Shown here one piece after another: positions 12,854-35,895 of a DNA stretch of 36,935 nt. Below the pieces are notes generated by a model, which saw only the letters and a list, made by a program, of their open reading frames with translations, was not told the origin of the DNA and made no database searches. This DNA is from Burkholderiales bacterium (GTDB lineage Bacteria; Pseudomonadota; Gammaproteobacteria; Burkholderiales; Casimicrobiaceae), in the NCBI GenBank assembly GCA_025927765.1, contig JAICKU010000038.1:1-36935 (forward strand). The letters run 5' to 3'. A program made the position numbers and the translations under genes. Position 1 is the first letter of the stretch. Each line of letters begins with the position of its first letter.

Positions 12854-12854
12854 G

Positions 12855-20010: not shown

Positions 20011-20019
20011 GCGAACTCG

Positions 20020-21549: not shown

Positions 21550-21592
21550 GGCCAGAGCGGCGCGAGTTCGGCCGCGCACGACGCTCGGAGCG

Positions 21593-22528: not shown

Positions 22529-22541
22529 TTGACCCTCTCCC

Positions 22542-24128: not shown

Positions 24129-24160
24129 TGCGTTATTCCGGACTCGGGCGGGTCACGCGA

Positions 24161-24808
24161 TCAGAACCAGCTTTGCGGAATGATCAGGATGTCGCCGGGA
24201 CGCATCGCGACATTGGCGGTGATGTCGCCGCCCTTGATGAGGTCGCGCAGCCGAACGCTGTAGATCTTTCCACCGTCGGCTACGCGAAAAATACGGGCCG
24301 CGTTGCCGTCGGCGAAGTCGGTGAGACCGCCGGCCTGGATCATCACGTCGAGCACCGTCATGTCCTTGCGAAACGGCAGGATCTGCGGCTTGGCGGCTTC
24401 GCCGATCACGCGCACCTGCTCGCTCGTCGGGCCGACGAAGTTGGTGACGACGATGGTCACGACCGGATCGCGGATGTACTTGACGAGCGCCTTCTCCATG
24501 TCGCGCTCGAGCTCGGACGGGGTCTTGCCGAGCGCAGGCAGGTCGTCGATGAGCGGCGTGGTGATCTTGCCGTCGGGACGTACGGGCACCGACATCGACA
24601 ACTCCGGATTGCGCCATACAATCACGTTCACCACGTCGGACGGACCGATGTGATAGTTGTAGTCGACGTCGCCGAGCGATGCGGGTGCCGGCGCGTACTG
24701 CGGCCCCGCACATGCCGCGAGCACGAGCGAGAACAAGAAAGGAATCAGATGCCCGAGCCGGACACGACGTTGCAAACCTGCGTCACGACCTTGCGGTTCC
24801 TGCAGCAT
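24161..24808 (-). CDS. XrtA system exopolysaccharide export lipoprotein (Wza-like, TIGR03027)
   Basis: The 215-residue lipoprotein has a signal sequence ending in a lipobox (LAAC, mature Cys33). A polysaccharide export domain follows (YHIGPSDVVNVIVWRNPELS, then VPVRPDGKITTPLIDDL), then an SLBB domain (VRVIGEAAKPQILPF, AGGLTDFADGNAARIFR) and a final MRPGDILIIPQSWF. It forms the periplasmic/outer-membrane part of the polysaccharide translocon. ATG 24808 is fixed by a GGAGGA Shine-Dalgarno sequence 4 nt upstream; longer in-frame starts would run through the promoter. It is the first gene of the 16-gene minus-strand run, directly behind a sigma-54 promoter. Confidence 0.95.
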   Translation of the reverse strand: MLQEPQGRDAGLQRRVRLGHLIPFLFSLVLAACAGPQYAPAPASLGDVDYNYHIGPSDVVNVIVWRNPELSMSVPVRPDGKITTPLIDDLPALGKTPSELERDMEKALVKYIRDPVVTIVVTNFVGPTSEQVRVIGEAAKPQILPFRKDMTVLDVMIQAGGLTDFADGNAARIFRVADGGKIYSVRLRDLIKGGDITANVAMRPGDILIIPQSWF

Positions 24809-24811
24809 GCT

Positions 24812-24817
24812 TCCTCC
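24812..24817 (-). promoter_or_regulatory. ribosome binding site of the export-lipoprotein gene
   Basis: GGAGGA on the minus strand ends 3 nt before ATG 24808. It is the strongest Shine-Dalgarno match in the operon and decides the start of the first gene. Confidence 0.8.
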
Positions 24818-24858
24818 GGTAGCCGACCATCGAGGGTGCGGCCGATGATAACAAGTGT

Positions 24859-24870
24859 TTCGACGTCGAA
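24859..24870. repeat. 12-bp perfect palindrome in the divergent promoter region
   Basis: TTCGACGTCGAA is a perfect palindrome lying just downstream of the predicted sigma-54 start site of the 16-gene operon, in the 5' untranslated region. It could be an operator or simply chance in GC-rich DNA. No regulator in the window can be assigned to it. Confidence 0.35.
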
Positions 24871-24886
24871 CCGAGCGGAAGAACCA

Positions 24887-24902
24887 AGCACGGTTCGTGC
24901 CA
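24887..24902 (-). promoter_or_regulatory. sigma-54 (-24/-12) promoter of the 16-gene XrtA operon
   Basis: Read on the minus strand, the site is TGGCACGAACCGTGCT. Against the consensus TGGCAC(G/A)-N4-TTGC(A/T) it matches 11 of 12 informative positions, with the invariant GG and GC correctly 10 bp apart; only the first T of the -12 element is G. The transcript would start near 24876 and leave a leader of about 68 nt before ATG 24808. Sigma-54 control with the PrsK/PrsR two-component system is known for PEP-CTERM systems in some betaproteobacteria. Confidence 0.8.
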
Positions 24903-24910
24903 TCACTTCG

Positions 24911-24926
24911 TGGCATACGCCGCGCT
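24911..24926 (+). promoter_or_regulatory. candidate sigma-54 promoter facing the DUF1302 gene
   Basis: TGGCATACGCCGCGCT on the plus strand matches the -24 element fully (TGGCA, pyrimidine, purine) and keeps the GC and final T of the -12 element, but the two T residues of -12 are replaced by GC. The predicted start is near 24937, about 43 nt before ATG 24980. Only 8 bp separate it from the divergent promoter at 24887-24902. Confidence 0.5.
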
Positions 24927-24979: not shown

Positions 24980-26521
24980 ATGAACGTGGCGGATGACGAC
25001 GCGGGCGAGATCGCTGCGGGCACTCTACGCGAACGCCGGGAGCCAGCGCCGGCAGCATGCGCATCGCGATGGCTCGCCTGCGCGCTTCGCCCGCTGCTCG
25101 CGCTCTCGGTGGGGTTGCTTGCGTTGGCGGCGCACGCGAGCGACATCGCGCCGCCGTTCGCGCCTGCACGCGATTTCGCGTCGCTGCTTGCACAGGCCGC
25201 ACCCGCATCGCGCGACGAATTGTTCGGCGGCGACGAAGCGAAACCGTCGGAGCCTTCGCGCGAATCGCTGTTCGGCGAGGACGTGGCGCGCGCCAAGGCG
25301 CAAGCGTCCGGCATCGCGTGGCATGGATATCTGCGCGGCAAGCTCGCGTACACGTACGCCGACCCGGAGCACTGGTCGAAGATGCTCGTTCGCGGCGAGC
25401 TCGACGGCCAGGGACAGCTCGCGCCCAACGTCAAGTATCGGATCGGCGCGCGACTCGACTACGACTTCGTCTACGACGCGACGAACTTCTACCCGTCCGA
25501 CGTGCGGCGCGACCAGCGATTCGACGCGATGCTGCGCGAGAACTACGTCGACATCGGCGCGGGCGATTTCGATTTCCGGCTCGGCCGCCAGCAGATCGTG
25601 TGGGGCGAGATGGTCGGGCTGTTCTTCGCCGACGTCGTCTCCGCGAAGGACCTGCGCGAATTCATCCTGCCCGACTTCGACGTGCTGCGCATTCCGCAAT
25701 GGGCGCTGCGCGGCGAGTATTTCAAGGGCGACTTCCATGCGGAGGCCGTGTGGATTCCCGTGCCGAGCTACGACGACATCGGCAAGCCGGGTTCCGAATT
25801 CTTCCCGGCATTGCCGCCGCCACCGCCCGGATTCGCAACGCTCTACGACAACGAGCAGTTTCCGAAGCGAACGGCCGGCCACACCAATTTCGGCGCGCGA
25901 CTGTCGTGGCTCTCCAACGGTTACGACGTGTCGGCGTTCTATTACGACAGTATGGATGCGCAGCCGACGTTCTATCGCCAGATCCTCCTCGCACCGCAGC
26001 CGGCGTTCATCTATCAGGCCCGGCACGATCGCATCCAGCAGGTGGGCGGCACGCTCGCGAAGGACCTCGGCCCCGCCGTGTTCAAGATGGAAACCGTGTA
26101 CGCGCGCGGACGCAGCTACAACGTGCTGCGCTTCGACGACGGCGACGGCGTCGTGCGCCAGAACACGCTCGACATCGTGGCGGGGCTCGACTTCACGCTG
26201 CCGGCCGACACGCGCCTCAACGTGCAGGCGTTCAATCGTACGTTCTTCGACCACGATCCCGACATCGTGCCGAAGCGAAACGAGCCCGGCGCGAGCCTCC
26301 TCGTCAACCACCGCATCTCGGATCGTCTCGAAGCGGAAGTGCTGCTGATCTCGAGCGTCATTCGCAGCGACTGGCTGTTGCGGCCACGCGTCACGTGGAC
26401 GCTGACCCCGAACGTCCACCTGCTCTTCGGCCTCGACGTGTTCCACGGACCGCCGCTCGGGCTCTTCGGCCAGTTCAACAACCGCGATCGCGTCTATACC
26501 GAAGTACGCTACGCGTTCTGA
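24980..26521 (+). CDS. DUF1302-like outer-membrane protein
   Basis: The 513-residue protein has a long basic N-region and then a signal-peptide core (LRPLLALSVGLLALAAHAS) ending near residue 55. After a linker with repeated RDELFGGDE / RESLFGEDV, the remainder is a predicted outer-membrane beta-barrel beginning GYLRGKLAYTYADPEHWSKM. It contains LGRQQIVWGEMVGLFFADVV, SAKDLREFILPDFDVLRIPQ and an aromatic last strand ending VRYAF, a pattern I recognise from DUF1302 proteins. Such proteins are repeatedly found with lipid-export machinery. ATG 24980 is chosen because a later start would lose the n-region; there is no clear ribosome binding site. It ends 19 nt from the convergent ABC ATPase gene, which supports membership in the same export system. 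Confidence 0.82.
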   Translation: MNVADDDAGEIAAGTLRERREPAPAACASRWLACALRPLLALSVGLLALAAHASDIAPPFAPARDFASLLAQAAPASRDELFGGDEAKPSEPSRESLFGEDVARAKAQASGIAWHGYLRGKLAYTYADPEHWSKMLVRGELDGQGQLAPNVKYRIGARLDYDFVYDATNFYPSDVRRDQRFDAMLRENYVDIGAGDFDFRLGRQQIVWGEMVGLFFADVVSAKDLREFILPDFDVLRIPQWALRGEYFKGDFHAEAVWIPVPSYDDIGKPGSEFFPALPPPPPGFATLYDNEQFPKRTAGHTNFGARLSWLSNGYDVSAFYYDSMDAQPTFYRQILLAPQPAFIYQARHDRIQQVGGTLAKDLGPAVFKMETVYARGRSYNVLRFDDGDGVVRQNTLDIVAGLDFTLPADTRLNVQAFNRTFFDHDPDIVPKRNEPGASLLVNHRISDRLEAEVLLISSVIRSDWLLRPRVTWTLTPNVHLLFGLDVFHGPPLGLFGQFNNRDRVYTEVRYAF

Positions 26522-26540
26522 CCGTTTGCGCGGTCCGCGA

Positions 26541-27365
26541 TCAGCGCCCGGGCTGCGTCTCGCCGTCGGCGAACGCCGGCGGCTCGGCCGCGCGTTCGAA
26601 CGCGTAGCTCCATTCCTTGCGTGCGCGCACGCCAAGACGCACGATCTCGCCGTCCTCGAGGTCGACGCGACGATCGGCCATGCGGATCACCTGCGGGTCG
26701 TGCGTCGAAAAGATGAACGTCACTTTGGTTGCGCGATTGATCCGGCGCATGAGCCGCAGGATGTTGCGGCCCGTGCGATGGTCGAGATTCGCGGTCGGCT
26801 CGTCGGCGAGCACGAGCTGCGGATGCGCGACCAGCGCGCGCGCGATCGCGACGCGTTGGCGCTGACCGCCCGACAGCTGGTTCGGGCGGTGGCGCGCGTA
26901 GTCGGCGAGGCCGACGACGTCGAGGAAATGCAGCACGCGCTCGCGGCGCTCGCGCCGCCCGATCTCGGGCAGGTGTTGCAGCGGGTACTCGACGTTCTCG
27001 TAGGCGGTCAGCACGGGAAACAGGTTGAACGTCTGGAACACGAAGCCGATGGTGCGCGCGCGAAGCGCCGCGAGTTCGTCGGGCGTGCGCCCGCTCACGT
27101 CGCGGCCGTTGATCACGATGCGCCCGCGCGTCGGTGTATCGATGCAGCCGATCATGTTGAGCAGCGTCGACTTGCCGCTTCCCGAGGGACCCGCGAGCGC
27201 CAGGAACACGCCGCGGTCGACGTTGAGGCTCACGTTGGCAAGCGCGACGACGCGCTCTTCGCCGAGCGCGTATTCCTTGCTCACACCCTGCACCGACACC
27301 GCGAGGCGCGGATCGGCATCGGGCGCCCGGGTGGGCCGGCCGGCGCGCGCGGGCTCACCGGTCAT
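26541..27365 (-). CDS. ABC transporter ATP-binding protein (LolD/MacB-type)
   Basis: The 274-residue ATPase has Walker A GPSGSGKSTLLN (about 61-72), a Q-loop in FVFQTFNLFPVLTAYENVEY, signature LSGGQRQRVAIARAL, Walker B LVLADEPTANLD and the switch His in FSTHDPQ. These features place it in the LolD/MacB/FtsE class that works with FtsX-fold permeases to extract or push lipids and lipoproteins rather than to import solutes. It is the last gene of a three-gene minus-strand operon, with a GGAGGG ribosome binding site before ATG 27365 and a 42-nt gap after the second permease. Confidence 0.93.
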   Translation of the reverse strand: MTGEPARAGRPTRAPDADPRLAVSVQGVSKEYALGEERVVALANVSLNVDRGVFLALAGPSGSGKSTLLNMIGCIDTPTRGRIVINGRDVSGRTPDELAALRARTIGFVFQTFNLFPVLTAYENVEYPLQHLPEIGRRERRERVLHFLDVVGLADYARHRPNQLSGGQRQRVAIARALVAHPQLVLADEPTANLDHRTGRNILRLMRRINRATKVTFIFSTHDPQVIRMADRRVDLEDGEIVRLGVRARKEWSYAFERAAEPPAFADGETQPGR

Positions 27366-27407
27366 GCGACTTCCCTCCGCGCTTCGCGCTTCGCGGCCAA
27401 GTTGCGC

Positions 27408-28619
27408 TCATATCGCCTGCCGCAACGCATCGACGACGGGGATGCGTACCGCGCGCCGCGCCGCCGGAATGCCGGCGAGCGCCGTCGCCACGACGCCGAT
27501 CGCGAACGCCGCGAGCACGAGCACCGGCACGATCTCGATCCGCGCGACGTACCCGACGTCGGAATTCGGCGGCGGCGGCATCGGAATGCCGACGAACGAA
27601 ATACCCGCCGAGACCAGCACGCCGAGGATCGCGCCGATCGCCGAGCCGGCCACGCCGAGCACGAGGCATTCGACGAGCACGAGGCGCACGATGAACCCCG
27701 AGCGGTCGCCCAACGCGCGCATCGTTCCGAACTCGGGGATGCGCTCGAACAGGCTCATGTTCACGCTGTTGGCCACCGACAACAGCACCATGAGCAGGAT
27801 GATCGCGCGCAGCACGTCGAACTGCCGCTCGTAGAGCTTCACCGTCTTGGCATAGAAGTCGTTCAGCGTCTGCCACGTCGCCACGTCGAGATGCTGGCCG
27901 GCGAGCTTCGCCTCGAGCTCGCCCGCGATGCGATCGGTATCCTCGGTGCGCTCGAGCGACACGACGATCGTGCTGATGCCAGGGGTGCCGAGCGCGTCCT
28001 GCGCGGCGGCGAGCGGCACGCGGATCGCGCGCGCGTCGTAATCCTTGGAGAAGGTGCGGAACACGCCGACGACGTCGAGATCCGCCGTGTTGACCGCACC
28101 GCCTTCGCTCGAGAGCATCAGCGTGACGCGATCGCCGGGCTCGAGCTTGAGCGCACGTGCGACGCCGTCGCCGACCATCACGCCGTGTTCGTCACTCGCA
28201 CGAAGCCGCCGCCCTGCAACCATCGCGAGGTGCGTCCCGAGCGCCGCTTCCTTGTCCGGCTCGACGCCCTCCCCGTTGATCGCGAGGTCGGAGCGTCCGT
28301 TGTTGAGCAGCCCCGAAAAGGTGATGCGCGCCATCACGTCGCGCACCCCCGGGGTCGCTGCTATCGTCTTCTCGATCGGCTGTGGATGCGCAATGCGGTA
28401 GCGCTCGGGTTCGCGTGCGCCCCCTTGCCGGAAGCCTTCGCGCGACACCTGGATGTGTCCCGACTGCGAATGGATGACCGACTCGCCGAGCTGCACGAAG
28501 ATGTCGTGCACGAAGCCGCCGCTGACGATCAGTCCCACGACGCCGGCGATGATCGCCGCCATCGTCAGCGACGTGCGGCCGACGTGGCGGAACACGTTGC
28601 GTAGCGCGAGCTTCAGCAT
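27408..28619 (-). CDS. ABC transporter permease, FtsX/LolE type (second permease)
   Basis: The 403-residue protein has one N-terminal transmembrane helix (SLTMAAIIAGVVGLIVSGGF), a large periplasmic MacB-like domain of about 220 residues, and three C-terminal helices, with the FtsX core around SVANSVNMSLFERIPEFGTM. A periplasmic/loop motif GIPMPPPPNSDVGYVARIEI lies between the last two helices. With the ATPase and the sister permease it should form a LolCDE-like complex that moves a lipid or lipid-linked molecule to the periplasm. It is separated by 3 nt from the upstream permease gene. N-terminal residues MLKLALRNVFRHVGRTS are typical of the class. Confidence 0.92.
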   Translation of the reverse strand: MLKLALRNVFRHVGRTSLTMAAIIAGVVGLIVSGGFVHDIFVQLGESVIHSQSGHIQVSREGFRQGGAREPERYRIAHPQPIEKTIAATPGVRDVMARITFSGLLNNGRSDLAINGEGVEPDKEAALGTHLAMVAGRRLRASDEHGVMVGDGVARALKLEPGDRVTLMLSSEGGAVNTADLDVVGVFRTFSKDYDARAIRVPLAAAQDALGTPGISTIVVSLERTEDTDRIAGELEAKLAGQHLDVATWQTLNDFYAKTVKLYERQFDVLRAIILLMVLLSVANSVNMSLFERIPEFGTMRALGDRSGFIVRLVLVECLVLGVAGSAIGAILGVLVSAGISFVGIPMPPPPNSDVGYVARIEIVPVLVLAAFAIGVVATALAGIPAARRAVRIPVVDALRQAI

Positions 28620-28622
28620 CGG

Positions 28623-29852
28623 TCAGCGGTTGTGGCGCAGCGCATCGACGATCGCGAGCCGCGACGCGCGCCACGCCGGATAGACGCTTGCAACGATCGC
28701 CGTGACCGTCGCGAGCACGAACGCGCTTGCCGCGAGGTCGGGCGTGACCTTCACCTGCCCGATGTAGCCATGCGCCATGCCGGGCGGCGGCGGCATCGGA
28801 ATGCCGATCGCGGAGACGGCGAGCGCGAGCAGGAACCCCAGGACGAGGCCGATGACACCGCCCAGCAGGCCGAGCGCAGTTCCCTCGGCCATGAACTGCG
28901 CGAGGATGCGCCGGCGCGGGACACCGAGCGCCATCGACGTGCCGATCTCGCCGGTGCGCTCGAGCACGGCCATCGTGAGTGTGTTCGAGATGCTGAGTAC
29001 GATGATCGCGGCGATGATGAGCCGCACGACGCCCACCTGCTTCGAGAAGAGCGAGACGGTCTTGCGATAGAAATCCGCCTGTGCATACCACGTCGTCACC
29101 TCGAAACGATCGTGGGGCAGTTCCTGCCGCAGCACCTTCGCAACTTCGTCGGTGTTGGACGTATCGTCGAGCAGCACGATCCACGCATGCGCGCCTTGCA
29201 CGCGCAAGAGCGTTTGCGCGATTGCGATCGGCACGCGCAGCGCCGAATCGTCGTAGGCTTTCGACACCGTCGTGAACAAGCCCCGCACGACGAGTTCCAC
29301 CGCGTTGACGCCGCCGCTTGGCGTGTTCGCGAGCAGCACGACGGTGTCGCCGACACGAACGCCGAGGCTCTGCGCGAGGCCCGCGCCGAACAGCACGCCC
29401 TTCGGATCGTCGTCGCGAAGCGACGCGCCCTGCTCGATCAGCACGGCACGGCTCAAGTCGGTCTCGAGGCTCGGCTGTACGCCCTCGCCGACGAACGACA
29501 CGGTGGTCTCGCCGTGGCTCACGAGGCCCGAGAAATAAAGACGCGGCGCCACCTCGCGCACGTGCGGCGTACTGCGTACCCTTTGCAACGCTGCAGTGTC
29601 AGCGGGCAGCAGGTAGGCGAACGGGTCGGCGCGCCCCGCCTCGAGATAACCCGGTCGAGCGATCGTGAGGTGCCCCAGCTTCGAATGGATCGTCGATTCT
29701 CGCAGGTCGTAATAGATCCACTCGATGAAGCCGCTCGCGAGCATCAATGCGACAATCCCGAACGTGACGGCGGCGAGCGCCATCGCGCTTCGGCGCGGCT
29801 CGCGCAGCAGGTTGCGTATCGCAAACCATGGGATCGTCCACAGGAATCGCAT
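28623..29852 (-). CDS. ABC transporter permease, FtsX/LolE type (first permease)
   Basis: From ATG 29852 the protein has 409 residues, beginning MRFLWTIPWFAIRNLLREPR before the first membrane helix. It has the same plan as its neighbour: a periplasmic MacB-like domain, then three helices with the core ISNTLTMAVLERTGEIGTSM and the shared motif GIPMPPPPGMAHGYIGQVKV. A longer start at ATG 29909 has a GAAGG sequence a few bases upstream and cannot be excluded; it would add 19 charged residues. The two permeases are clearly paralogous but diverged, as in LolC/LolE pairs, suggesting a heterodimer. The start faces the ThiF-like gene, so the promoters of the two divergent units must lie in about 90 bp. 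Confidence 0.9.
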   Translation of the reverse strand: MRFLWTIPWFAIRNLLREPRRSAMALAAVTFGIVALMLASGFIEWIYYDLRESTIHSKLGHLTIARPGYLEAGRADPFAYLLPADTAALQRVRSTPHVREVAPRLYFSGLVSHGETTVSFVGEGVQPSLETDLSRAVLIEQGASLRDDDPKGVLFGAGLAQSLGVRVGDTVVLLANTPSGGVNAVELVVRGLFTTVSKAYDDSALRVPIAIAQTLLRVQGAHAWIVLLDDTSNTDEVAKVLRQELPHDRFEVTTWYAQADFYRKTVSLFSKQVGVVRLIIAAIIVLSISNTLTMAVLERTGEIGTSMALGVPRRRILAQFMAEGTALGLLGGVIGLVLGFLLALAVSAIGIPMPPPPGMAHGYIGQVKVTPDLAASAFVLATVTAIVASVYPAWRASRLAIVDALRHNR

Positions 29853-29943
29853 CTGGACCGCAAGGCGTACGGCCTCCGTGCGCCGGGACCGATCGGAAGA
29901 GGATAGCATTGCCTTCGATGCGAACGGCGCATCGTCCGCGCCC

Positions 29944-30831
29944 GTGACGCCCGGCGAGCGCGCGCGATTCGACTACGACGAGGCGTTCTCGCGCAACATC
30001 GGCTGGGTGACGAGGCCGGAGCAGACGGCGCTGCGCGGCAAGCGCGTGGCGATCGCGGGCCTCGGGGGCGTCGGCGGCATTCACCTGGTCACGCTCGCGC
30101 GCCTCGGCGTGGGCGCGTTCCATCTCGCCGACTTCGATCGCTTCGACCTCGCCAATTTCAATCGGCAGTCGGGCGCGATGATGAGCACGCTCGGCGAGCC
30201 CAAGGTGGAGGTGCTCGCGGCGATGGCGCGCGACATCGATCCCGAGATCGACGTCGTCACGTTCCCGAACGGCGTGGACACGCAGAACGTGGACGCCTTC
30301 CTCGCCGGCGTCGACGTCTACGTGGATGGGCTCGACTTCTTCGCCTTCGAGGCGCGGCGCGCGACCTTCGCCGCATGCGCGCGCCTTGGCGTGCCCGCGG
30401 TCACGGCGGCGCCGCTCGGCATGGGCGCAGCCGTGCTGAATTTCCTGCCGGGCGGGATGACCTTCGAGCAGTACTTCCAGCTGGAGGGCCACTCCGAGGA
30501 CGAGCAGGCGATCCGCTTCCTGCTGGGCCTCGCACCCGCCACGCTGCATCGCGGCTATCTCGTCGACCCCAGCGCGGTCGACCTTCGCGCTCGCAAGGGC
30601 CCGTCCACGGCGATGGCGTGCCAGATCTGCGCGGGCATCGCCGCGACCGAAGCATTGAAGATCATGCTGAAGCGTGGCCGCGTACGGAGCGCGCCGGCAG
30701 GTATGCAGTTCGACGCGTATCGCGGTCAGGTGCGGCATACGTGGCGTCCCGGTGGCAACGCCAATCCGCTGCAGCGGGCGGCCATCGCGATTGCCACGCG
30801 TCAATTGCTCGGGCGGATGCGCAACTCGTGA
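29944..30831 (+). CDS. E1-like (ThiF family) adenylyltransferase
   Basis: The protein has a ThiF/MoeB/E1 adenylation fold: RFDYDEAFSRNIGWVT, nucleotide-binding VAIAGLGGVGGIHLVTLARL, FHLADFDRFDLANFNRQ with the acidic and NRQ residues, and a conserved Lys in GEPKVEVL. A CQIC pair appears late (about 236-239); it may be a half zinc site or hold a catalytic Cys. E1-like enzymes activate a carboxylate as acyl-adenylate. No sulfur-carrier protein or molybdopterin gene is nearby, so a role in cofactor synthesis is doubtful. The start is uncertain: GTG 29944 (295 residues) and GTG 29878 are both possible, and a strong GGAAGAGGA sequence at 29895-29903 precedes only non-standard starts. It overlaps the nitroreductase gene as GTGA. 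Confidence 0.85.
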   Translation: MTPGERARFDYDEAFSRNIGWVTRPEQTALRGKRVAIAGLGGVGGIHLVTLARLGVGAFHLADFDRFDLANFNRQSGAMMSTLGEPKVEVLAAMARDIDPEIDVVTFPNGVDTQNVDAFLAGVDVYVDGLDFFAFEARRATFAACARLGVPAVTAAPLGMGAAVLNFLPGGMTFEQYFQLEGHSEDEQAIRFLLGLAPATLHRGYLVDPSAVDLRARKGPSTAMACQICAGIAATEALKIMLKRGRVRSAPAGMQFDAYRGQVRHTWRPGGNANPLQRAAIAIATRQLLGRMRNS

Positions 30832-31895
30832 GCGTCGTGCGCGAAATCCTCGAACTCGCGCGCTACGCGCCGAGCGGCGACAACACGCAGCCGTGGCGCT
30901 TCGCCATAGACGGCGAGCACGCGGTGACCGTGCACGGCCACGACACGCGCGAGCATTGCGTCTACGACCTCGACGGACGCGCGAGCCAGGTCTCGATCGG
31001 CGCGTTGCTCGAAACGATCGCGATTGCGGCGACGCGTTTTCGCCTGTCGACGGAAGTGACGCGGCGCCGCGATGCGCCGGAACAGGCGCCGGTGTTCGAC
31101 GTCACGTTCGATGAAGCGCCGGCGATGCAAGCCGATCCATTGTCCGCGTTCATCGTCGAGCGGCGCGTCTGCCGTCGCCCATTGTCGACGCGAGCGCTCA
31201 CGGCGGCGGAGCGCGATGCGCTGGAACGTGCGGCGGCGCCCTACACGCTGCGATGGTTCGATGGCTGGCGGGGACGGCTGCGGATGGCGGGCGTAAATTT
31301 CCGCAACGCCGGATTGCGATTGACGTTGCCGGAAGCGTACGAGGTGCACCGCGACGTGATCGAATGGGGCGCGACCCAAAGCGAGGATCGCATTCCGGAT
31401 GCGGCGCTCGGGGCAAGCCCGCTATCGCTCGCGATGATGCGGATGGCAATGAAGAGCTGGCAGCGCGTCGACTTCCTCAATCGCTACCTGGCCGGCACGC
31501 TTGCGCCCCGCATCGAGATGGATTGGATACCAGGCATCGCGTCCGCCGCACACATGACGCTTGTCGCTTCCGAGGCGCCCTCGGACATCGACGACTACGT
31601 TGCGGCCGGACGCGCCGTCCAGCGGCTCTGGTTGACGGCGGCGAGCCTCGGCCTGCAGTTCCAGCCCAGTTACACGCCGCTCGTGTTTTCCAGATTCGTC
31701 CGTGACGGCGTACGGTTCACGTCATCGCCCGCAGCGCATCGCCGCGCCGCCCGTGTTCGCGACGAGCTCGGCGATCTGCTCGGGCAGGACTTCGTGGATC
31801 GGACGGTATTCATGGGCAGGCTGGGCGCCGGCGCGCCGGCGCGTGCGCGGTCGACGCGGCTGCCGCTCGATCGCCTGATGAACGACCCCACGTAG
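30828..31895 (+). CDS. nitroreductase-family flavoprotein (MoeY-like)
   Basis: The 355-residue protein starts VSVVREILELARYAPSGDNT followed by QPWRF, the FMN-binding N-terminus of nitroreductase-fold enzymes. It ends with IASAAHMTLVASEAPSDIDD and an AGRAVQRLWLTAASLGLQFQ helix that normally closes the FMN site. The middle (about 110-250) has an insertion with NAGLRLTLPEAYEVHRDVIE not seen in simple nitroreductases. Its GTG start overlaps the ThiF-like stop, so the two proteins are made in fixed ratio. A ThiF domain and a nitroreductase domain also occur in one polypeptide in mycobacterial MoeY, from memory. It probably oxidises or reduces the compound activated by its partner; the substrate is unknown. 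Confidence 0.85.
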   Translation: MSVVREILELARYAPSGDNTQPWRFAIDGEHAVTVHGHDTREHCVYDLDGRASQVSIGALLETIAIAATRFRLSTEVTRRRDAPEQAPVFDVTFDEAPAMQADPLSAFIVERRVCRRPLSTRALTAAERDALERAAAPYTLRWFDGWRGRLRMAGVNFRNAGLRLTLPEAYEVHRDVIEWGATQSEDRIPDAALGASPLSLAMMRMAMKSWQRVDFLNRYLAGTLAPRIEMDWIPGIASAAHMTLVASEAPSDIDDYVAAGRAVQRLWLTAASLGLQFQPSYTPLVFSRFVRDGVRFTSSPAAHRRAARVRDELGDLLGQDFVDRTVFMGRLGAGAPARARSTRLPLDRLMNDPT

Positions 31896-31909
31896 ACCGG
31901 CGCGCAAAA

Positions 31910-31941
31910 CGAACAAGGGCGCCTTGCGGCGCCCTTGTTCG
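31910..31941 (-). terminator. intrinsic terminator between convergent genes
   Basis: A perfect 14-bp stem (CGAACAAGGGCGCC and its complement) with a 4-nt loop lies between the nitroreductase stop (31895) and the PEP-CTERM gene stop (31965). Read on the minus strand it is followed by TTTTGCG, so it best terminates the PEP-CTERM transcript; the symmetric stem may also stop the plus-strand transcript. Confidence 0.88.
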
Positions 31942-31964
31942 TGAAGCAGCGAGGACGGTACTTC

Positions 31965-32939
31965 TCAGCCGTTGTGGCGCTTGCGGCTCGCCCAGCCGAA
32001 GCCGATCAGGCCGACGCTCAACAGCGCGAGCGTACCGGGCTCGGGAACGGCTGTCACTTCGGTGGCCTGTGTAGTCACGTGGTGGTCGATCGTGAACGTG
32101 TATCGGTGACCGCCGAGCAGCACGACGTTCGACGTCGCCGCGAAGTGACCAGAACAATCCTGCGTCGGGGGCGAAGGCTGATCAAACGTCGCGCTTGCAT
32201 TCCGCGCCAAATTGCAGCCTTCCGCCGACACCGTCAACCCCTCCTGCGTACCGGAGCCCGTGTTCCCGTTGGGAATCCAGTCGATCAACGTGTCGCCCGT
32301 CACGGCGTCGACCAGCGTCAATTCCCATTTGAAGCCCGCGCCGGCGCCCGTGGGGTCCGTCGTGCCGGCCGCCGTCCACGCTTGAAGGAAGGTCGTCGCG
32401 TCGAAGGAGAATCCCGCTTGAGCGATATCGTGCGTGGCGACGAACGTAAAACCGGACGTGAGCAGGATGTCCGACGACGACCCGCCGGTCGCGTCGGTGC
32501 TGAGCGACGTAACGGCGATCGCGCTCGCATTGGCACCCACGGGCTGACCGGTGCCGCTGATCGGTTGGCCAGTCAGCAGAGAGTCACTTCGAGCATAGGT
32601 GTCGGTCGGAGGCGTACCCACTGACGTGAACACGTTCTCGCCCGGGCATCCCGTGCCGACGCATGCCTGCGCCGCATCCGTGACGGGCGCGAAGCCGGTG
32701 GACTGAACCTGATGATGATCGGTGGCGCCGTTCAAGATCGCGTCGTTCGTCAGCGTATCGATGAACGACAGTTGCGAAAAGTCACTTAATGCCAACGGCG
32801 TGCCGCTACCGTTGGTAATGACGAAATTGTTGATAGTGAGGAGCGACTGCGCCAACGCGTCCGCATTCGCATTGCCTGCCATGCCGACGCCGCACGCCGC
32901 CGCAACCGCTGTCCCGAGTGCCAGTTTTTGGAGCTTCAT
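31965..32939 (-). CDS. PEP-CTERM sorting domain-containing protein
   Basis: The 324-residue secreted protein has a signal peptide (MKLQKLALGTAVAAACGVGM, then AGNANA before DALAQ). A Thr/Ser/Gly-rich mature domain of beta character contains two short Cys-containing loops (CVGTGCPGE and CNLARN...QDC). A classical PEP-CTERM tail follows: VPEPGTLALLSVGLIGFGWA, then the basic RKRHNG end. XrtA should cut at the PEP motif. ATG 32939 is set by GCGAGGA 7 nt upstream and by the signal peptide; a longer frame to 33017 is not supported. It is transcribed from a sigma-54-type promoter and ends at a strong terminator. The globular domain function is unknown. It is the only PEP-CTERM substrate in the window. 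Confidence 0.95.
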   Translation of the reverse strand: MKLQKLALGTAVAAACGVGMAGNANADALAQSLLTINNFVITNGSGTPLALSDFSQLSFIDTLTNDAILNGATDHHQVQSTGFAPVTDAAQACVGTGCPGENVFTSVGTPPTDTYARSDSLLTGQPISGTGQPVGANASAIAVTSLSTDATGGSSSDILLTSGFTFVATHDIAQAGFSFDATTFLQAWTAAGTTDPTGAGAGFKWELTLVDAVTGDTLIDWIPNGNTGSGTQEGLTVSAEGCNLARNASATFDQPSPPTQDCSGHFAATSNVVLLGGHRYTFTIDHHVTTQATEVTAVPEPGTLALLSVGLIGFGWASRKRHNG

Positions 32940-32991
32940 TCGTTGTCCTCGCTTTGTTCGATGTGCGCTCAACCCGATGCGCCGAACATAA

Positions 32992-33007
32992 AGCAAGGGC
33001 AGTGCCG
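32992..33007 (-). promoter_or_regulatory. sigma-54 (-24/-12) promoter of the PEP-CTERM gene
   Basis: The minus strand reads CGGCACTGCCCTTGCT. The GGCAC of the -24 element and the complete TTGCT of the -12 element are present with correct spacing (10 of 12 informative positions). The start would be near 32981, about 40 nt before ATG 32939. This agrees with RpoN-dependent expression reported for PEP-CTERM genes in other betaproteobacteria. Confidence 0.78.
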
Positions 33008-33089
33008 AAGAATGCAACTACTTGTAGTGAATAGATTTTTTCGAAGGAAGGTCGAGCGCGGCGGCTTCCCGTGTAAAGCGCTTCGACAC

Positions 33090-33104
33090 TCGCTCAACGA
33101 GCGA
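33090..33104. repeat. inverted repeat upstream of the PEP-CTERM promoter
   Basis: TCGCTC and GAGCGA form a 6-bp inverted repeat with a 3-nt centre, 83 to 97 bp upstream of the -24 box and just after the stop of the N-acyltransferase gene. It could be an NtrC-type activator site or a short hairpin after that gene; it has no T-tract, so a terminator is less likely. Confidence 0.35.
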
Positions 33105-33111
33105 AAGACGG

Positions 33112-33888
33112 TCAGCCCAACGTCCGGAGACGCCGCTCCACCGACATCTCCTCCCTCGTTCCGAAAAAGTACGGATAAAGCGACCGCGTCGAGGCTGCGA
33201 GATCGATGCGTCCGCCAAGACGCGCGATCTCCGCCTGGGCGTGCGCGAGGCACAGGCGCAGCAGCACGGCCGGCGCACCCACACGCGGATCGCCGCGCTC
33301 GTCGCCGTACGGCTCGAATCCCAGCATGCGGCGATAAAACGCGGCGTGACGGGGGTTCACTTCGATCAGGAGGTCCGTGCAGCGATGGATGCGCCGGGCG
33401 CAGATGTACGCAATGTGGAACAGCGCGGCGAGCAGCGGCTTCGAATGCAGGTTGTTGTCGACGGCGAGCTTGGTGAATTCGGCCACGCGGCGCCCTTCCC
33501 CCCGCAGCTGGTTCGCTTCACCGCCATAGAGCCCGTCGACGAACAGGCCTTCGGAAGAGTCGAGCCCGACGGTGACCGTACCCACGACACCGTCCGGATC
33601 GTGCGCGGCGATCGTGATGCGGGTCGGCGTCTTCGACGGCGCCGCGCCGTCGACCGAATACCCGCGCCACGCGTACCTCCGTTGGATCAGGTAGCTCGCC
33701 GACTGGCACTGCGACTCGGTGGTCGCGAGGCGGATCTTGAAGAGGTTCGTGTTGGCCGTGGTGGTGAGGGCCCGGGAATCGGGATCCTCGACACAGAGCC
33801 GAACGGGGTGGGGAGTGCGGGGTACGGTAACGATCGTATCGCCGCCGATCGGCGTCCGGATCGGCTGGCGTCTGGCCAATGCTGTCAA
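33112..33888 (-). CDS. FeeM-type N-acyl amino acid synthase
   Basis: The 258-residue protein resembles N-acyl amino acid synthases of the FeeM group. It has a GNAT-like fold with ASYLIQRRYAWRGYSV at the start of the acyl-binding region, VGTVTVGLDSSEGLFVDGLY, the conserved RVAEFTKLAVDNN strand and LLIEVNPRHAAFYRRMLGFE near the end. Such enzymes join a long acyl chain from acyl-ACP to an amino acid; a group of them is known to be linked to PEP-CTERM/exosortase systems. The start is TTG 33888, supported by AAGGAG 5 nt upstream; there is no better ATG. The PEP-CTERM gene follows on the same strand after 172 nt, and the TIGR03694 acyltransferase is encoded divergently. Confidence 0.88.
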   Translation of the reverse strand: MTALARRQPIRTPIGGDTIVTVPRTPHPVRLCVEDPDSRALTTTANTNLFKIRLATTESQCQSASYLIQRRYAWRGYSVDGAAPSKTPTRITIAAHDPDGVVGTVTVGLDSSEGLFVDGLYGGEANQLRGEGRRVAEFTKLAVDNNLHSKPLLAALFHIAYICARRIHRCTDLLIEVNPRHAAFYRRMLGFEPYGDERGDPRVGAPAVLLRLCLAHAQAEIARLGGRIDLAASTRSLYPYFFGTREEMSVERRLRTLG

Positions 33889-33893
33889 CGGTG

Positions 33894-33899
33894 CTCCTT
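33894..33899 (-). promoter_or_regulatory. ribosome binding site fixing a TTG start
   Basis: AAGGAG on the minus strand lies 5 nt before TTG 33888 and decides the unusual start codon of the N-acyl amino acid synthase gene. Confidence 0.75.
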
Positions 33900-34028
33900 A
33901 TTCATCTGTCATGACCCGAGGACGCAGCCGAATGGTCGACTACACGTTGAACACGCCGGGAGTCTAATTGAGAAAAAAAGCGGATGATAGTGTCTCTGAA
34001 AGGCGACGCTGCGCGCCAAATGGCCACT

Positions 34029-34041
34029 GATTGGGCCAATC
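34029..34041. repeat. inverted repeat between the two divergent acyltransferase genes
   Basis: GATTGG and CCAATC flank a single central G in the 251-bp region 33889-34139. It is the clearest symmetric element there and could be an operator for both genes. The same region has an A-tract at 33972-33979 and a TACAAT hexamer at 34085-34090 that might be a -10 element for the plus-strand gene, but no well-spaced -35 was found. Confidence 0.3.
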
Positions 34042-34139
34042 GACAACATTCATTCAACCGGCATTGTTCCCGGAGGGTCGCGGCTACAATGGGGCCGGAC
34101 GCCCACCCCGCAAGGCGCGGGAACGCCGTCCTCACACGC

Positions 34140-34931
34140 ATGTACCTGCCCGAGTTCCTGAACCTCCGCGCCGGATTCGAGAAGTACTTCACGGCGCACG
34201 CCGCCACTACGGAGGCCCTCGAGCTCGCCGCCTACCGCATTCGCCACGAGGTGTACTGCGAGGAGCTGGGCTACGAGGCCGCGCGGGACGACGGCATGGA
34301 GCGCGACCGTTACGACGCCCGCGCACTGCATTGCGTGCTGCGCAGCGTGCGCAACGACGAATACGTCGGGTGCGTACGACTCGTGCTCGCGGATCCGCAC
34401 GATGCGACCGCGAACCTGCCGTTCGAGACGTATTGCGGCGCGTCGCTCGACCGCCGCCTCGCCGATCCTGACGCCCTGCCGCGAACCACGATCGCCGAAG
34501 TCTCGCGCCTCGCCGTCGTCGGCCGCTATCGCCGACGCAGCGGCGAGCGCAATCTGCCGGTGGCACTCACCGAACGCGACTTCGGCACGCCGGATCGCCC
34601 GCGCTTTCCGTACCTCGCGGTGGGCCTCTATCTCGCGATGCTCGCGCAGGCGCGCCGCCATGGCATCGAGACGCTGTTCATGCTGACCGAGCAACGTCTC
34701 GCCCGTCAGCTCACGCGTCTCGGCGTGCACCTCACGCCGATCGGGCCCGCGATCGAGCATCGCGGCTGGCGCTTCCCGTCGATGATGTCGGTGCCCGAGG
34801 TCATCGACAGCCTCAACTTCTTCGTGCGGCCGATGTTCGAGGTGATCGCAGAAGAAATCGAGACGTCGTACCAGCCGGCGAAAGCGACGCCGTTCGAGCT
34901 CACTCGAGCTTCTTCAGGTAGTCCTTCGTGA
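34140..34931 (+). CDS. PEP-CTERM/exosortase system-associated acyltransferase (TIGR03694)
   Basis: The 263-residue protein starts MYLPEFLNLRAGFEKYFTAH and contains AAYRIRHEVYCEELGYE, a pattern related to autoinducer (AHL) synthases. YVGCVRLVLAD, LPFE, a conserved EVSRLAVVGRYRRR segment and GIETLFMLTEQRLARQLTRL follow. The family is found only with exosortase systems and is thought to make an acylated small molecule. Its substrate is unknown. ATG 34089 would add 17 residues; 34140 matches the family start. It is divergent from the FeeM-like gene and its last 32 bases overlap tail-to-tail with the LolA-like gene. Confidence 0.9.
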   Translation: MYLPEFLNLRAGFEKYFTAHAATTEALELAAYRIRHEVYCEELGYEAARDDGMERDRYDARALHCVLRSVRNDEYVGCVRLVLADPHDATANLPFETYCGASLDRRLADPDALPRTTIAEVSRLAVVGRYRRRSGERNLPVALTERDFGTPDRPRFPYLAVGLYLAMLAQARRHGIETLFMLTEQRLARQLTRLGVHLTPIGPAIEHRGWRFPSMMSVPEVIDSLNFFVRPMFEVIAEEIETSYQPAKATPFELTRASSGSPS

Positions 34932-35709
34932 ATACCTTGTCGGGCAGGTCGCGCAGCTTCATCGCGCTGTAATCGAGCGTCGAGATCTCGCCCGCGTGCA
35001 GCGCGTCCTCCATCACGAGGCGCGTGGGCCGCAGCTTCCCGAGCACCTTCTCGAACTTCTCGTAGCGGCATGTTTTCAGCAAGCGGTTCGACGCCGAGTA
35101 GAACTCGGCCTTGTACGGCGCCGACGTCGACTGCTTCACCCAGTACACCACGCGCGGATAGGTCACCGAGCGGTCGACGGCGGTGAGCTCGAGCACGTCG
35201 TATTGCTCGCCGTCGATCGTGTCGGTGCGTACGACCTTCGGCTCGTAATCGCCGGCGAAATTGGCGCGCGCGAGATCGCCATTGGCGACCTGCCCGGTGA
35301 GCCGTTGCGCGAGCGACAGGCGCACCGGCTGCGACACGTTGGGCATGAACACCCAGAGATCATGTCCCTTCATCAGCATGATCTGCCCGCGCTCCGACGC
35401 GGGCTCGGTGATCATGACGACGGTGTTCTCGTTGCCCTTCGAGAGTATGCGGTACTTGTGCTCGTCGGCCGCGCGTTCCTTGCCGGTGGTCGCGATCGCG
35501 ACGTCCACCTGGAAGCCCTCGGCGGGGAAGCGAATGCGATCGGCTTCCTCGACGATCTTGCGTGCATGCGCGTCGACGCCCGCCGGCGCCTGCTCCTGCA
35601 CGGCGGTGGTCGTGGGTGCGGCCGGCGGCGAGCCGTCGGCAAACGCGGCGCCCGAGGCGGCGACTGCGAGCGCGAGCGAAACGAGGGGTGCGTTGAGCGG
35701 AATCTTCAT
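34900..35709 (-). CDS. LolA-like outer-membrane lipoprotein-sorting protein (COG2834)
   Basis: The 269-residue protein has a signal peptide (MKIPLNAPLVSLALAVAASG, cleaved after AAFA). A LolA/LppX-like fold follows: ARKIVEEADRIRFPAEGFQV, SERGQIMLMKGHDLWVFMPN, QPVRLSLAQRLTGQVANGDL, YDVLELTAVDRSVTYPRVVY and a C-terminal TLDYSAMKLRDLPDKVFTKD. Proteins of this group carry lipids or lipoproteins through the periplasm on a half-open barrel. Together with the LolD/LolE-type ABC genes and the DUF1302 barrel it supplies the periplasmic step of an export route. Its last 32 bases overlap the end of the convergent acyltransferase gene. The nearest upstream gene is tRNA-Arg. Confidence 0.9.
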   Translation of the reverse strand: MKIPLNAPLVSLALAVAASGAAFADGSPPAAPTTTAVQEQAPAGVDAHARKIVEEADRIRFPAEGFQVDVAIATTGKERAADEHKYRILSKGNENTVVMITEPASERGQIMLMKGHDLWVFMPNVSQPVRLSLAQRLTGQVANGDLARANFAGDYEPKVVRTDTIDGEQYDVLELTAVDRSVTYPRVVYWVKQSTSAPYKAEFYSASNRLLKTCRYEKFEKVLGKLRPTRLVMEDALHAGEISTLDYSAMKLRDLPDKVFTKDYLKKLE

Positions 35710-35818: not shown

Positions 35819-35895
35819 TGGCGCGCCCGACAGGATTCGAACCTGTGACCCTTGGCTTCGGAAACCAATACTCTATCCAACTGAGCTACGGGCGC
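35819..35895 (-). tRNA. tRNA-Arg (anticodon CCG)
   Basis: On the minus strand the 77-nt gene folds into a complete cloverleaf: acceptor GCGCCCG/CGGGCGC, D-arm GCTC AGTTGGATA GAGT, anticodon loop TTCCGAA with CCG at positions 34-36, T-arm ACAGG TTCGAAT CCTGT. The discriminator base is G and CCA is encoded. CCG reads the CGG arginine codon, common in this high-GC genome. Confidence 0.97.

Follow-up and report, generated by a model that had tools for sequence, protein, structure and literature searches.

Several described gene clusters combine an N-acyl amino acid synthase (NAS) with a ThiF-type protein and a nitroreductase-superfamily flavoenzyme (FDO). In TyzABC, TrzAS and OxzAB, the NAS, a ThiF cyclase and the FDO are encoded together and make the acyl-oxazolones Tyz, Trz and Oxz (PMC10404671, PMC12856293). 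The same three enzymes are proposed to make N-acyl dehydrotyrosines, and in the stieleriacine, thalassotalic acid and kyonggic acid clusters the NAS, ThiF and nitroreductase-family genes lie close together, overlapping or separated by short gaps in two Pseudomonadota strains; the role of ThiF in these clusters is called 'enigmatic' by the authors (PMC12479983). The locus described here differs from both groups: in their available text, the reports describe no transport genes for the N-acyl dehydrotyrosine clusters (PMC12479983), and neither an exosortase locus nor a LolA-like carrier or DUF1302 protein for the acyl-oxazolone pathways, the transporter mmpL9 being merely noted near tyz (PMC10404671, PMC12856293). 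A link between NAS and exosortases is credited to Craig, Cherry and Brady 2011 (as cited in PMC11072679, PMC4897644), and in Methylomonas LW13, according to the accessible part of the report, disruption of the NAS of a PEP-CTERM system abolished a distinct polysaccharide band, which complementation restored (PMC11072679).

On the transport side, the locus shares its permease fold and a LolA-superfamily carrier with LolCDE-LolA and the type VII ABC systems (MacB, YbbAP). Two further systems, as far as the available text goes, have a comparable composition. AmeABCD of Castellaniella defragrans unites a DUF1302 outer-membrane protein, a LolA-superfamily periplasmic protein and an inner-membrane pump for hydrophobic compounds; unlike in the window, the pump is of the RND HAE3 type, the carrier a DUF1329 protein and the substrates are monoterpenes (PMC6394551). 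In Borrelia, the seven-gene cluster BBJ23-29 groups a type VII ABC transporter with a LolA-like and an outer-membrane protein, for which a non-polar ligand is proposed, but it belongs to spirochaetes, has an Omp85-family barrel and a homodimeric permease and is described without a synthase (PMC13078400).

Here we analyse a window of 36,935 nucleotides, the whole stretch of DNA under study, from a Burkholderiales bacterium. The initial annotation had proposed a single complete pathway for making, modifying and exporting an acylated small molecule beside an exosortase locus. We instead favour, with a probability of roughly 0.55, two linked modules at this locus, of which module A (FeeM, ThiF, FDO) would make an N-acyl amino acid and module B (two MacB/LolE-like permeases, a LolD-like ATPase, a LolA-like carrier and a DUF1302 barrel) would serve the dedicated export of N-acyl amino acid-type lipids from the inner to the outer membrane.

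Gene content of the locus

Family-profile and open reading frame searches recovered all genes of the initial annotation in their places beside the xrtA locus, with the identities and the coupling that it had assigned to them (Table 1). The LolA-like gene overlaps the 3' end of the TIGR03694 gene by 32 nt. A megablast search for plasmid DNA similar to the window gave no match.

Table 1. Features of the module region and the neighbouring exosortase locus
Feature	Position	Strand	Evidence
XrtA/PEP-CTERM locus	7229..24916	-	NCBIfam models over cut-off
DUF1302-family outer-membrane beta-barrel, Sec-type signal region	24980..26521	+	PF06980, 48.1 bits (cut-off 23.2)
ABC ATPase, LolD/DevA-like; third in permease operon	26541..27365	-	PF00005
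ABC permease 1, MacB_PCD+FtsX, LolE/LolF-like (type VII ABC)	27408..28619	-	Pfam
ABC permease 2, MacB_PCD+FtsX, LolF/LolE-like; divergent from ThiF	28623..29909	-	Pfam
ThiF/E1-like adenylyltransferase-cyclase	~29944..30831	+	NF006077, 463 bits (cut-off 266)
Nitroreductase-superfamily flavoenzyme (FDO)	30828..31895	+	PF00881
EDSAP-1 family PEP-CTERM protein	31965..32939	-	NF041538, 236 bits (cut-off 100)
PEP-CTERM regulatory box	32992..33077	-	motif 1 TTTACA, 64-nt spacer, sigma-54-like motif 2
FeeM-type N-acyl amino acid synthase	33112..33888	-	PF21926, 166 bits (cut-off 27)
PEP-CTERM/exosortase system-associated acyltransferase	33984..34931	+	TIGR03694, 252 bits (cut-off 111.95)
LolA-like periplasmic carrier	34900..35709	-	PF17131, 167 bits (cut-off 30)

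In the XrtA locus, exosortase A with an EpsI domain is encoded within 14078-15553 (XrtA core 14777-15550) and TIGR03109 scores 337 bits, over its cut-off. TIGR03027/3007/3018/3016/3015/3087/3088/3108/4063/3097 also exceed their cut-offs, and the locus includes glycosyltransferases (TIGR03087/3088/4063), an amidotransferase and an O-ligase. The PEP-CTERM gene in the middle of the cluster was absent from the initial annotation; the C-terminus of its product matches TIGR02595 and PF07589, and the protein is a predicted exosortase substrate. In the regulatory box, motif 1 (33077-33072) is the sole TTTACA on either strand of the window, and motif 2 (33007-32992) has two mismatches and would not stand out alone. 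The spacer and distance fit those given in the available text of Haft 2006 (PMC1569441). As the sigma-54 consensus alone has 45 matches in the window against 63 expected, it is the two-part box that is informative, not the consensus by itself.

The make-and-modify enzymes

Two NAS-type acyltransferases are encoded in the window: in sequence searches of the PDB, the FeeM-type protein matches FeeM (2G0B, E=1e-13), and the TIGR03694 protein has a weak AHL-synthase match. In an alignment of 14 ThiF orthologues, a glycine-rich loop, the arginine of FNRQ, the acidic residues in VD..VDxLDFF and one CxxC are invariant; the loop, FNRQ and the acidic residues we take to be those of adenylation. The ThiF-type cyclase with adenylation residues that belongs to a NAS-ThiF-FDO pathway is thus present, as is a coupled FDO of the nitroreductase superfamily, whose start overlaps the ThiF stop (GTGA). 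The FDO passes PF00881 with a best stretch of only 25 residues, and it matches NF005901 (the Rv1355c/TrzS family), over the C-terminal half, and Acg NF047509, both under cut-off; R.APS.DN.Q.WRF is kept across 14 orthologues. Moreover, FeeM, ThiF and FDO match non-overlapping segments of the 989-position model NF011425 (86-208, 312-593 and 622-735, respectively), each match being partial and far under the model cut-off. The arrangement suggests that a natural fusion of the three exists.

The enzymes beside the xrtA locus are thus likely to produce a fatty-acid-tagged amino acid and to modify it further, part of which ThiF and FDO would turn into a cyclised and/or desaturated form, that is, an acyl-oxazolone or N-acyl dehydroamino acid. 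Since NAS, ThiF and a nitroreductase-type FDO are the published gene set for acyl-oxazolones and N-acyl dehydrotyrosines, this half is known chemistry, and the novelty originally claimed for the lipid route does not extend to it. Module A is itself variable, as the FDO is missing from some genomes with ThiF: at E 1e-8, it was not found in three of the nine genomes searched that have both ThiF and the ABC exporter, nor in the ThiF-bearing genome G056.

The transport genes

The permeases and the ATPase resemble Lol proteins but fall far short of the NCBIfam equivalog cut-offs for LolC/E and LolD. The ATPase scores 216 bits with TIGR02982 and 212 bits with the LolD model TIGR02211, both under cut-off (308 for LolD), and permeases 1 and 2 reach 98 and 124 bits with TIGR02212, against a cut-off of 362. 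The best PDB match of permease 1 is LolE and the best PDB sequence for permease 2 is LolF, while the AF2 model of permease 2 (pLDDT 86) is closest in fold to LolE of LolCDE with Lpp. At the place of the LolC Hook, which docks LolA, the loop falls about five residues short of its counterparts in LolE and LolF. Measured by target TM, the model of permease 2 agrees slightly better with Hook-less LolC (0.64-0.67) than with Hook-bearing LolC (0.58-0.63), a gap that target length partly predicts. The closest relative with a solved structure, LolCDE, moves lipoproteins, an observation that speaks against the export of N-acyl amino acids.

The carrier belongs to the LolA superfamily, but PF17131 (LolA_like) is its sole Pfam match and no NCBIfam model, canonical LolA included, matches at E 1e-3. 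It is an orthologue of PDB 3BUU (Nitrosomonas europaea NE2245), with an alignment profile score of 411 bits over the domain (E=8e-123). Over 223 aa, the 3BUU chain and the protein of one of our survey loci (L191) show 100% identity, so that this orphan structure itself comes from an ABC/LolA-like/DUF1302 module. Alongside module B, this N. europaea locus encodes a TIGR03694-like enzyme and a PEP-CTERM-like protein, whereas neither ThiF nor FDO was detected in its 20.8 kb. The DUF1302 protein has no sequence match in the PDB, and its AF2 model (mean pLDDT 76) is a barrel; the Foldseek matches are generic porin- and AlgE-like ones, too uninformative to derive a substrate from the fold. We propose that the barrel is the outer-membrane exit.

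Module B could also be a second, dedicated Lol route that moves lipid-bearing proteins, for instance PEP-CTERM proteins processed by exosortase or private lipoproteins, to the outer membrane, with the acyltransferase as lipid supplier or mere neighbour. The kinship of the permeases to LolE, LolF and LolC in fold and sequence, the superfamily of the carrier and the PEP-CTERM gene inside the cluster speak for it, whereas the Lol cut-offs, the PF17131 carrier and the recurrent DUF1302 partner set module B apart from LolCDE-LolA. We consider this reading unlikely, also in light of the distribution described below.

Distribution across genomes

Orthologues were searched in 200 genomes of the order and in a class-wide sample of 312. 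Permease 2 (ABC_P2), our marker for the exporter, was counted as present with a best match of >300 bits (19 genomes) or, in one genome (G005), with a shortened, 55%-identical match, and the LolA-like orthologue with >180 bits; these thresholds were set after seeing the gap in scores. Left out were permease 2 matches of <300 bits (34-39% identity, 10 places), LolA matches of <180 bits, a second G092 fragment (a gene cut by the contig end), FeeM matches in G081, in G102 and, at two further weak places, in G016 (E about 1e-11), ThiF matches that missed the cut-off and, from alignment A6, permease 2 of locus L036, which has a stop codon in range.

ABC_P2 is found in 20 and the LolA-like orthologue in 19 of the 200 order genomes, with 19 common to both. 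Together with the missed family cut-offs, this distribution rules out that these are the housekeeping LolCDE/LolA genes. Their clustering exceeds chance: other genomes also unite these families, in many rearranged orders, and the independent scattering of families that would have spoken against the initial proposal was not seen overall. That such housekeeping genes and unrelated enzymes are neighbours by accident has next to no probability, even if every family, taken singly, is either widespread or similar to a common one. ThiF and ABC_P2 lie at most 11 kb apart in all 12 genomes with both; in seven of these, XrtA lies no closer than 64 kb or on a different contig, which weakens the explanation of this linkage as a by-product of the xrtA island, although draft contigs do not prove distance. 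Under strict thresholds, all five transport genes are present in 11 of 12 loci from other orders, and ThiF in nine.

The proposed tie to xrtA held up as non-random: XrtA accompanies 19/20 genomes with ABC_P2 and 33/35 with ThiF in the order sample and, over cut-off, all 13 carriers of the LolA-like orthologue among the 312 class-wide genomes, 77 of which have XrtA (E<=1e-50). This tie would suit a second Lol route; however, 37 of the 56 XrtA-bearing order genomes lack the module, so PEP-CTERM sorting can proceed without it. At the limits used, XrtA and all of these orthologues are absent from the five other sampled genomes of the organism's own family, and the set is therefore patchy.

A single obligatory pathway is ruled out. 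Eight of 20 genomes with the exporter lack ThiF, 23 of 35 with ThiF lack the exporter, and within the 56 XrtA-bearing genomes the two are independent (12 with both; Fisher p=0.78, kinship ignored). At E 1e-8, the FDO was found in none of the eight genomes with the exporter but no ThiF, all of which have TIGR03694. As ThiF and the exporter each also occur alone, we see two linked modules, and an exporter that is not dedicated to the product modified by the E1-like enzyme and the flavoenzyme.

The exporter does follow the synthases. FeeM or TIGR03694 is present in 20/20 order genomes with ABC_P2, compared with 28/180 without it, and among XrtA-bearing genomes in 19/19 versus 24/37 (Fisher p=0.0023, kinship ignored); in 19/20, at least one such gene has a module gene no more than 10 kb away (exception G111). 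The 24 XrtA-bearing genomes with a synthase but no exporter indicate that such products can do without export by this module.

Module B may, on the other hand, export another hydrophobe or envelope lipid, such as a hopanoid, a fatty acid or a lipid intermediate of exopolysaccharide synthesis, and neighbour the synthases through a common surface island. We regard this as rather unlikely. It would agree with the diverse hydrophobes of related pumps, namely the monoterpenes of AmeABCD (PMC6394551) and the non-polar ligand proposed, in the accessible text, for Borrelia BBJ23-29 (PMC13078400). Distant ABC and LolA_like homologues also adjoin in six genomes (G058, G077, G182, G024, G115 and G129, contig 27), so the pairing is general, and of the 52 module loci that span at least 18 kb, 29 gave no synthase near LolA by tblastn. 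Yet FeeM is encoded somewhere in the genome in 28 of the 29 module genomes whose LolA locus showed no synthase, and the linkage stays close even where XrtA lies apart; in the module genome of Rhodocyclus purpureus (L123), neither FeeM nor TIGR03694 was found. Among the 10 loci listed from a de novo search for an extra conserved neighbour, a search muddied by shadow ORFs, no hidden synthase was recognised. Some signal-peptide proteins occur in the gap before DUF1302 in these loci.

Proposed role and significance

The association of module B with NAS-type enzymes and XrtA supports the export of an acyl product that the initial annotation had envisaged. In our favoured reading of two linked modules, TIGR03694 or FeeM enzymes would supply an N-acyl amino acid-type amphiphile, which the ABC exporter would extract from the inner membrane and pass to the LolA-like protein. 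This carrier would take the amphiphile through the periplasm for delivery to the outer membrane, or passage across it, by way of the DUF1302 barrel. The five-gene transporter may thus bring a fatty-acid-tagged amino acid to the cell surface, where it would join the surface and exopolysaccharide programme served by XrtA. We think it very unlikely that the N-acyl amino acid, or a related lipid, is the membrane anchor or acceptor of exosortase A and the module a private Lol-type route to the surface for lipid-anchored PEP-CTERM proteins or for the anchor lipid.

Craig, Cherry and Brady reportedly found in 2011 that NAS genes, including the TIGR03694 family, adjoin exosortase elements, and are said not to mention an exporter module. 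Among the literature matches listed, which covered titles and abstract openings with subscription papers mostly outside their scope, none described the ABC/LolA-like/DUF1302 module in connection with NAS or exosortase; in this setting, the transport half may be new.

These findings offer a testable role for the orphan crystal structure 3BUU/NE2245, a conserved type VII ABC exporter and a DUF1302 barrel. They would also join the N-acyl amino acids of environmental bacteria to exosortase and exopolysaccharide as parts of a single envelope programme. Should the cargo prove to be an N-acyl amino acid, module B would constitute an ABC/LolA-type export route for this lipid class.

Organization of the region

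The window, which is the entire contig 75 of a draft genome (4.0 Mb, 148 contigs, 95.6% complete), carries the genes named in the initial annotation, whose calls proved correct. Beyond the exosortase A (XrtA) locus (see table) lie a DUF1302 gene (+), an operon of permease 2, permease 1 and ATPase (-), and ThiF followed by FDO, a nitroreductase-superfamily flavoenzyme (+). These are followed by a PEP-CTERM gene (-), FeeM (-), TIGR03694 (+) and a LolA-like gene (-). ThiF and FDO overlap by GTGA and the 3' ends of TIGR03694 and the LolA-like gene by 32 nt, while permease 2 and ThiF diverge from likely starts ~34 bp apart. In the following, we refer to the two permeases, the ATPase, the LolA-like carrier and the DUF1302 barrel as the module.

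Features located in the window
Feature	Position	Strand	Remarks
Second asparagine-synthase-like amidotransferase	4574-6994	-	below TIGR03108 cut-off
XrtA/PEP-CTERM exopolysaccharide locus	7.2-24.9 kb	-	family models over cut-off: exosortase A with EpsI domain, three PEP-CTERM-system glycosyltransferases, amidotransferase, O-glycosylation ligase, UDP-GlcNAc epimerase; TIGR03015, 3016, 3018, 3007, 3027
Full-length amidotransferase	10925-12853
Perfect sigma-54-like match	13804-13819	-	within glycosyltransferase gene
Sigma-54-like site, one mismatch	24887-24902	-	~80 nt upstream of an internal ATG, likely the start of the TIGR03027 export gene
Two-part PEP-CTERM regulatory box	32992-33077	-	TTTACA (single occurrence in whole window), 64-nt spacer, sigma-54-like site; 52 nt upstream of EDSAP-1 ATG
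tRNA-Arg(CCG)	35819-35895	-	immediately past LolA-like gene; possible island border

Predicted synthesis and modification enzymes

The FeeM protein (166 bits) matches the FeeM crystal structure 2G0B, the TIGR03694 protein scores 252 bits, and ThiF is assigned to NF006077. Two long family models give partial matches, all far below cut-off: NF011425 (989 positions) to FeeM (86-208), ThiF (312-593) and FDO (622-735), and NF011424 (679 positions) to ThiF (22-297) and FDO (327-669). This layout looks like that of natural fusions of FeeM/ThiF/FDO-type enzymes. The glycine-rich loop, the FNRQ arginine, the acidic residues of VD..VDxLDFF and one CxxC are kept in 14 ThiF orthologues, as is R.APS.DN.Q.WRF, a flavin-site motif of nitroreductases, in 14 FDO orthologues. 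In described homologous pathways, an amino acid is acylated by TyzA/TrzA, cyclized in an ATP-dependent step by TyzB/TrzS-ThiF and desaturated in an O2-dependent step by FDO to yield acyl-oxazolones (PMC10404671, PMC12856293); likewise, producers of N-acyl dehydrotyrosine are marked by genes for an N-acyl amino acid synthase (NAS), ThiF and a nitroreductase-family protein (PMC12479983). The make-and-modify half is therefore of a known kind.

Some FeeM proteins of 431-461 residues (e.g. at loci L205-L208, L210-L216 and L219-L223) carry a long extension C-terminal to the FeeM domain, and many of those found in whole-genome searches of named genomes are ~435 residues long with such an extension. 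One of five tested gave a sub-threshold PilZ match; perhaps these are c-di-GMP-controlled NAS enzymes, and both terms occur in PMC4897644. Two genomes (G086 C22 and G165 C21; loci L066, L067) carry a tandem pair of diverged ThiF-like genes, ~30% identical to that of the window.

The proposed export proteins

Both permeases have MacB_PCD and FtsX domains and find their best PDB relatives in LolE, LolF and LolC; against the LolC/E family model, their scores (98 and 124 bits) are far below the cut-off of 362. At the expected position of the LolC Hook, their loop has ~5 residues fewer than its counterparts in LolE and LolF, the two proteins of that comparison. The permease 2 model (pLDDT 86) fits best to LolE of LolCDE with Lpp; its target TM-scores are 0.64-0.67 to Hook-less LolC versus 0.58-0.63 to Hook-bearing LolC, a difference partly expected from target length. 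A sequence search of the PDB found nothing related to the DUF1302 protein, whose model is a generic barrel.

The carrier belongs to PF17131 (LolA_like) and was not matched by any canonical LolA model in the family-model search. An alignment of its orthologues recovers, at 411 bits, PDB 3BUU, the 'uncharacterized LolA superfamily protein NE2245'. Over 223 residues, the 3BUU chain shows 100% identity to a Nitrosomonas europaea protein (locus L191). The gene for this protein is accompanied by those for both permeases, the ATPase, the DUF1302 protein and a TIGR03694-like enzyme, and by one encoding a protein with, as judged by eye, a PEP-CTERM-like end. A 2018 paper that lists 3BUU with other structures of the LolA superfamily gives the periplasmic role of most of them as unknown (PMC6394551). 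Among the matches listed, in a search that most subscription journals lie outside, there was no earlier report of this genomic context.

Distribution in Burkholderiales

We searched 200 genomes of the order, including that of the window. A permease 2 orthologue is present in 20 ('ABC-positive'; 19 with a best match >300 bits and G005 with a truncated, 55%-identical match), a LolA-like orthologue in 19, ThiF over cut-off in 35, XrtA in 56 at E<=1e-50 (51 over cut-off), FeeM in 37 after removal of two genomes with weak matches, and TIGR03694 in 26. Permease 2 and the carrier share 19 genomes, the sole ABC-positive exception (G126) being 78% complete. ABC-positive genomes bear 12 family labels.

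XrtA is found in 19/20 ABC-positive and 33/35 ThiF-positive genomes. FeeM or TIGR03694 is carried by all 20 and all 35 of these, versus 48/200 overall. Within the 56 XrtA-positive genomes, and with kinship ignored throughout, a synthase accompanies ABC in 19/19 (p=0.0023), FeeM accompanies ThiF in 30/33 (p=2e-8) and TIGR03694 accompanies ABC in 14/19 (p=6e-4), but ThiF (33) and ABC (19) overlap in only 12 (p=0.78), ThiF and ABC being independent of each other within this group. All eight ABC-positive genomes without ThiF have TIGR03694, and none has FDO at E 1e-8. FDO gave no match in three (G118, G092, G179) of the nine searched genomes among the 12 with both ABC and ThiF, matched weakly in two (G103, G029), and was not found in ThiF-positive G056; these results count against a strict ThiF-FDO pair.

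The five other sampled genomes of the window's own family (G038, G083, G125, G163, G198) gave no XrtA, permease 2, LolA-like, FeeM or TIGR03694 match at the limits applied, nor did ThiF pass its cut-off in any of them. The region as a whole may have a patchy inheritance or have been acquired.

Linkage and arrangement

In 19/20 ABC-positive genomes, a FeeM or TIGR03694 gene lies <=10 kb from a module gene. All 12 genomes with both ThiF and permease 2 have the two within 11 kb of each other; seven of these genomes have XrtA on a different contig or 64 kb or more away. Counting differences in order, strand or detected ThiF, FDO and synthase, we found seven arrangements among seven full-module loci of the first set, and four among five, 20 among 36 and nine among 11 in the other sets. 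A directly adjacent, divergent permease 2/ThiF pair occurs in 4/36, 0/15, 17/80 and 2/12 loci of the four sets; the gap between the two genes ranges from 71 bp to 2 kb.

In G107 and G063 (L049, L109, L099, L100), the module is split, with permease 2 away from permease 1, ATPase, LolA-like, DUF1302 and TIGR03694 genes; in G107 it still adjoins ThiF-FDO, and G063 has the two parts on separate contigs. Distant permease and LolA_like homologues (30-39% identity) adjoin each other in G058, G077, G182, G024, G115 and G129 C27, which suggests that ABC-LolA_like pairs form a broader family, perhaps with different cargo.

Conservation beyond the order

Among 312 genomes of the class, the listed ones including two of the same order besides the window's own, 13 have a LolA-like orthologue (E<=1e-55). 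XrtA exceeds its cut-off in 13/13 of these, versus 77/312 (E<=1e-50) overall (p=6e-9; 2e-8 without the own genome). At strict thresholds, the five transport genes are complete in 11 of the 12 other stretches around these matches, the twelfth having a weak DUF1302 match at the contig start; ThiF occurs in 9/12, an FDO-like match in 8/12 and a TIGR03694-like match in 6/12.

A search of genome contigs with the LolA-like alignment yielded 327 relatives, of which we kept 80, including Accumulibacter, Dechloromonas, Azonexus, Propionivibrio, Rhodocyclus, Nitrosomonas, Nitrosospira and other Betaproteobacteria. By tblastn on these 80 loci, many of them cut short, we detected ATPase and DUF1302 in 74 each, permease 1 in 40, permease 2 in 41, TIGR03694 in 30, ThiF in 28, FDO in 22 and FeeM in 11. 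Of the 52 loci that span 18 kb or more, 29 showed no synthase near the LolA-like gene; genome-wide, FeeM is found in 28 of these 29 genomes and TIGR03694 in two, with only Rhodocyclus purpureus (L123) having neither.

Proposed function

The link of FeeM-type enzymes and TIGR03694 to PEP-CTERM systems, given as known in the initial annotation, is indeed already established for NAS and exosortases, as are the ThiF/FDO/NAS chemistry and, elsewhere, the ABC/LolA-like/outer-membrane kind of system. Among the matches listed, most subscription journals being outside the search, no earlier report described this five-gene exporter, which is widely conserved and linked to XrtA and these synthases.

As established for Lol, ABC systems of the LolCDE type pull acylated molecules out of the inner membrane, and proteins of the LolA type shield the acyl chains on their way through the periplasm. 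AmeABCD, which handles hydrophobes, has a DUF1302 protein, a LolA-superfamily protein and a pump in common with the module (PMC6394551); the system proposed for Borrelia BBJ23-29 shares an ABC transporter, a LolA-like protein and an outer-membrane protein (PMC13078400). Therefore, the best reading of the module, at slightly better than even odds (about 0.55), is that of a transporter for an acylated amino acid, as had been proposed. The further proposal that the cargo is the form altered by the E1/flavoprotein pair is not favored, since 8/20 ABC-positive genomes lack ThiF. Finally, disruption of a PEP-CTERM-system NAS in Methylomonas LW13 led to loss of a polysaccharide band (PMC11072679), which suggests that the acylated amino acid may have a role in the matrix.
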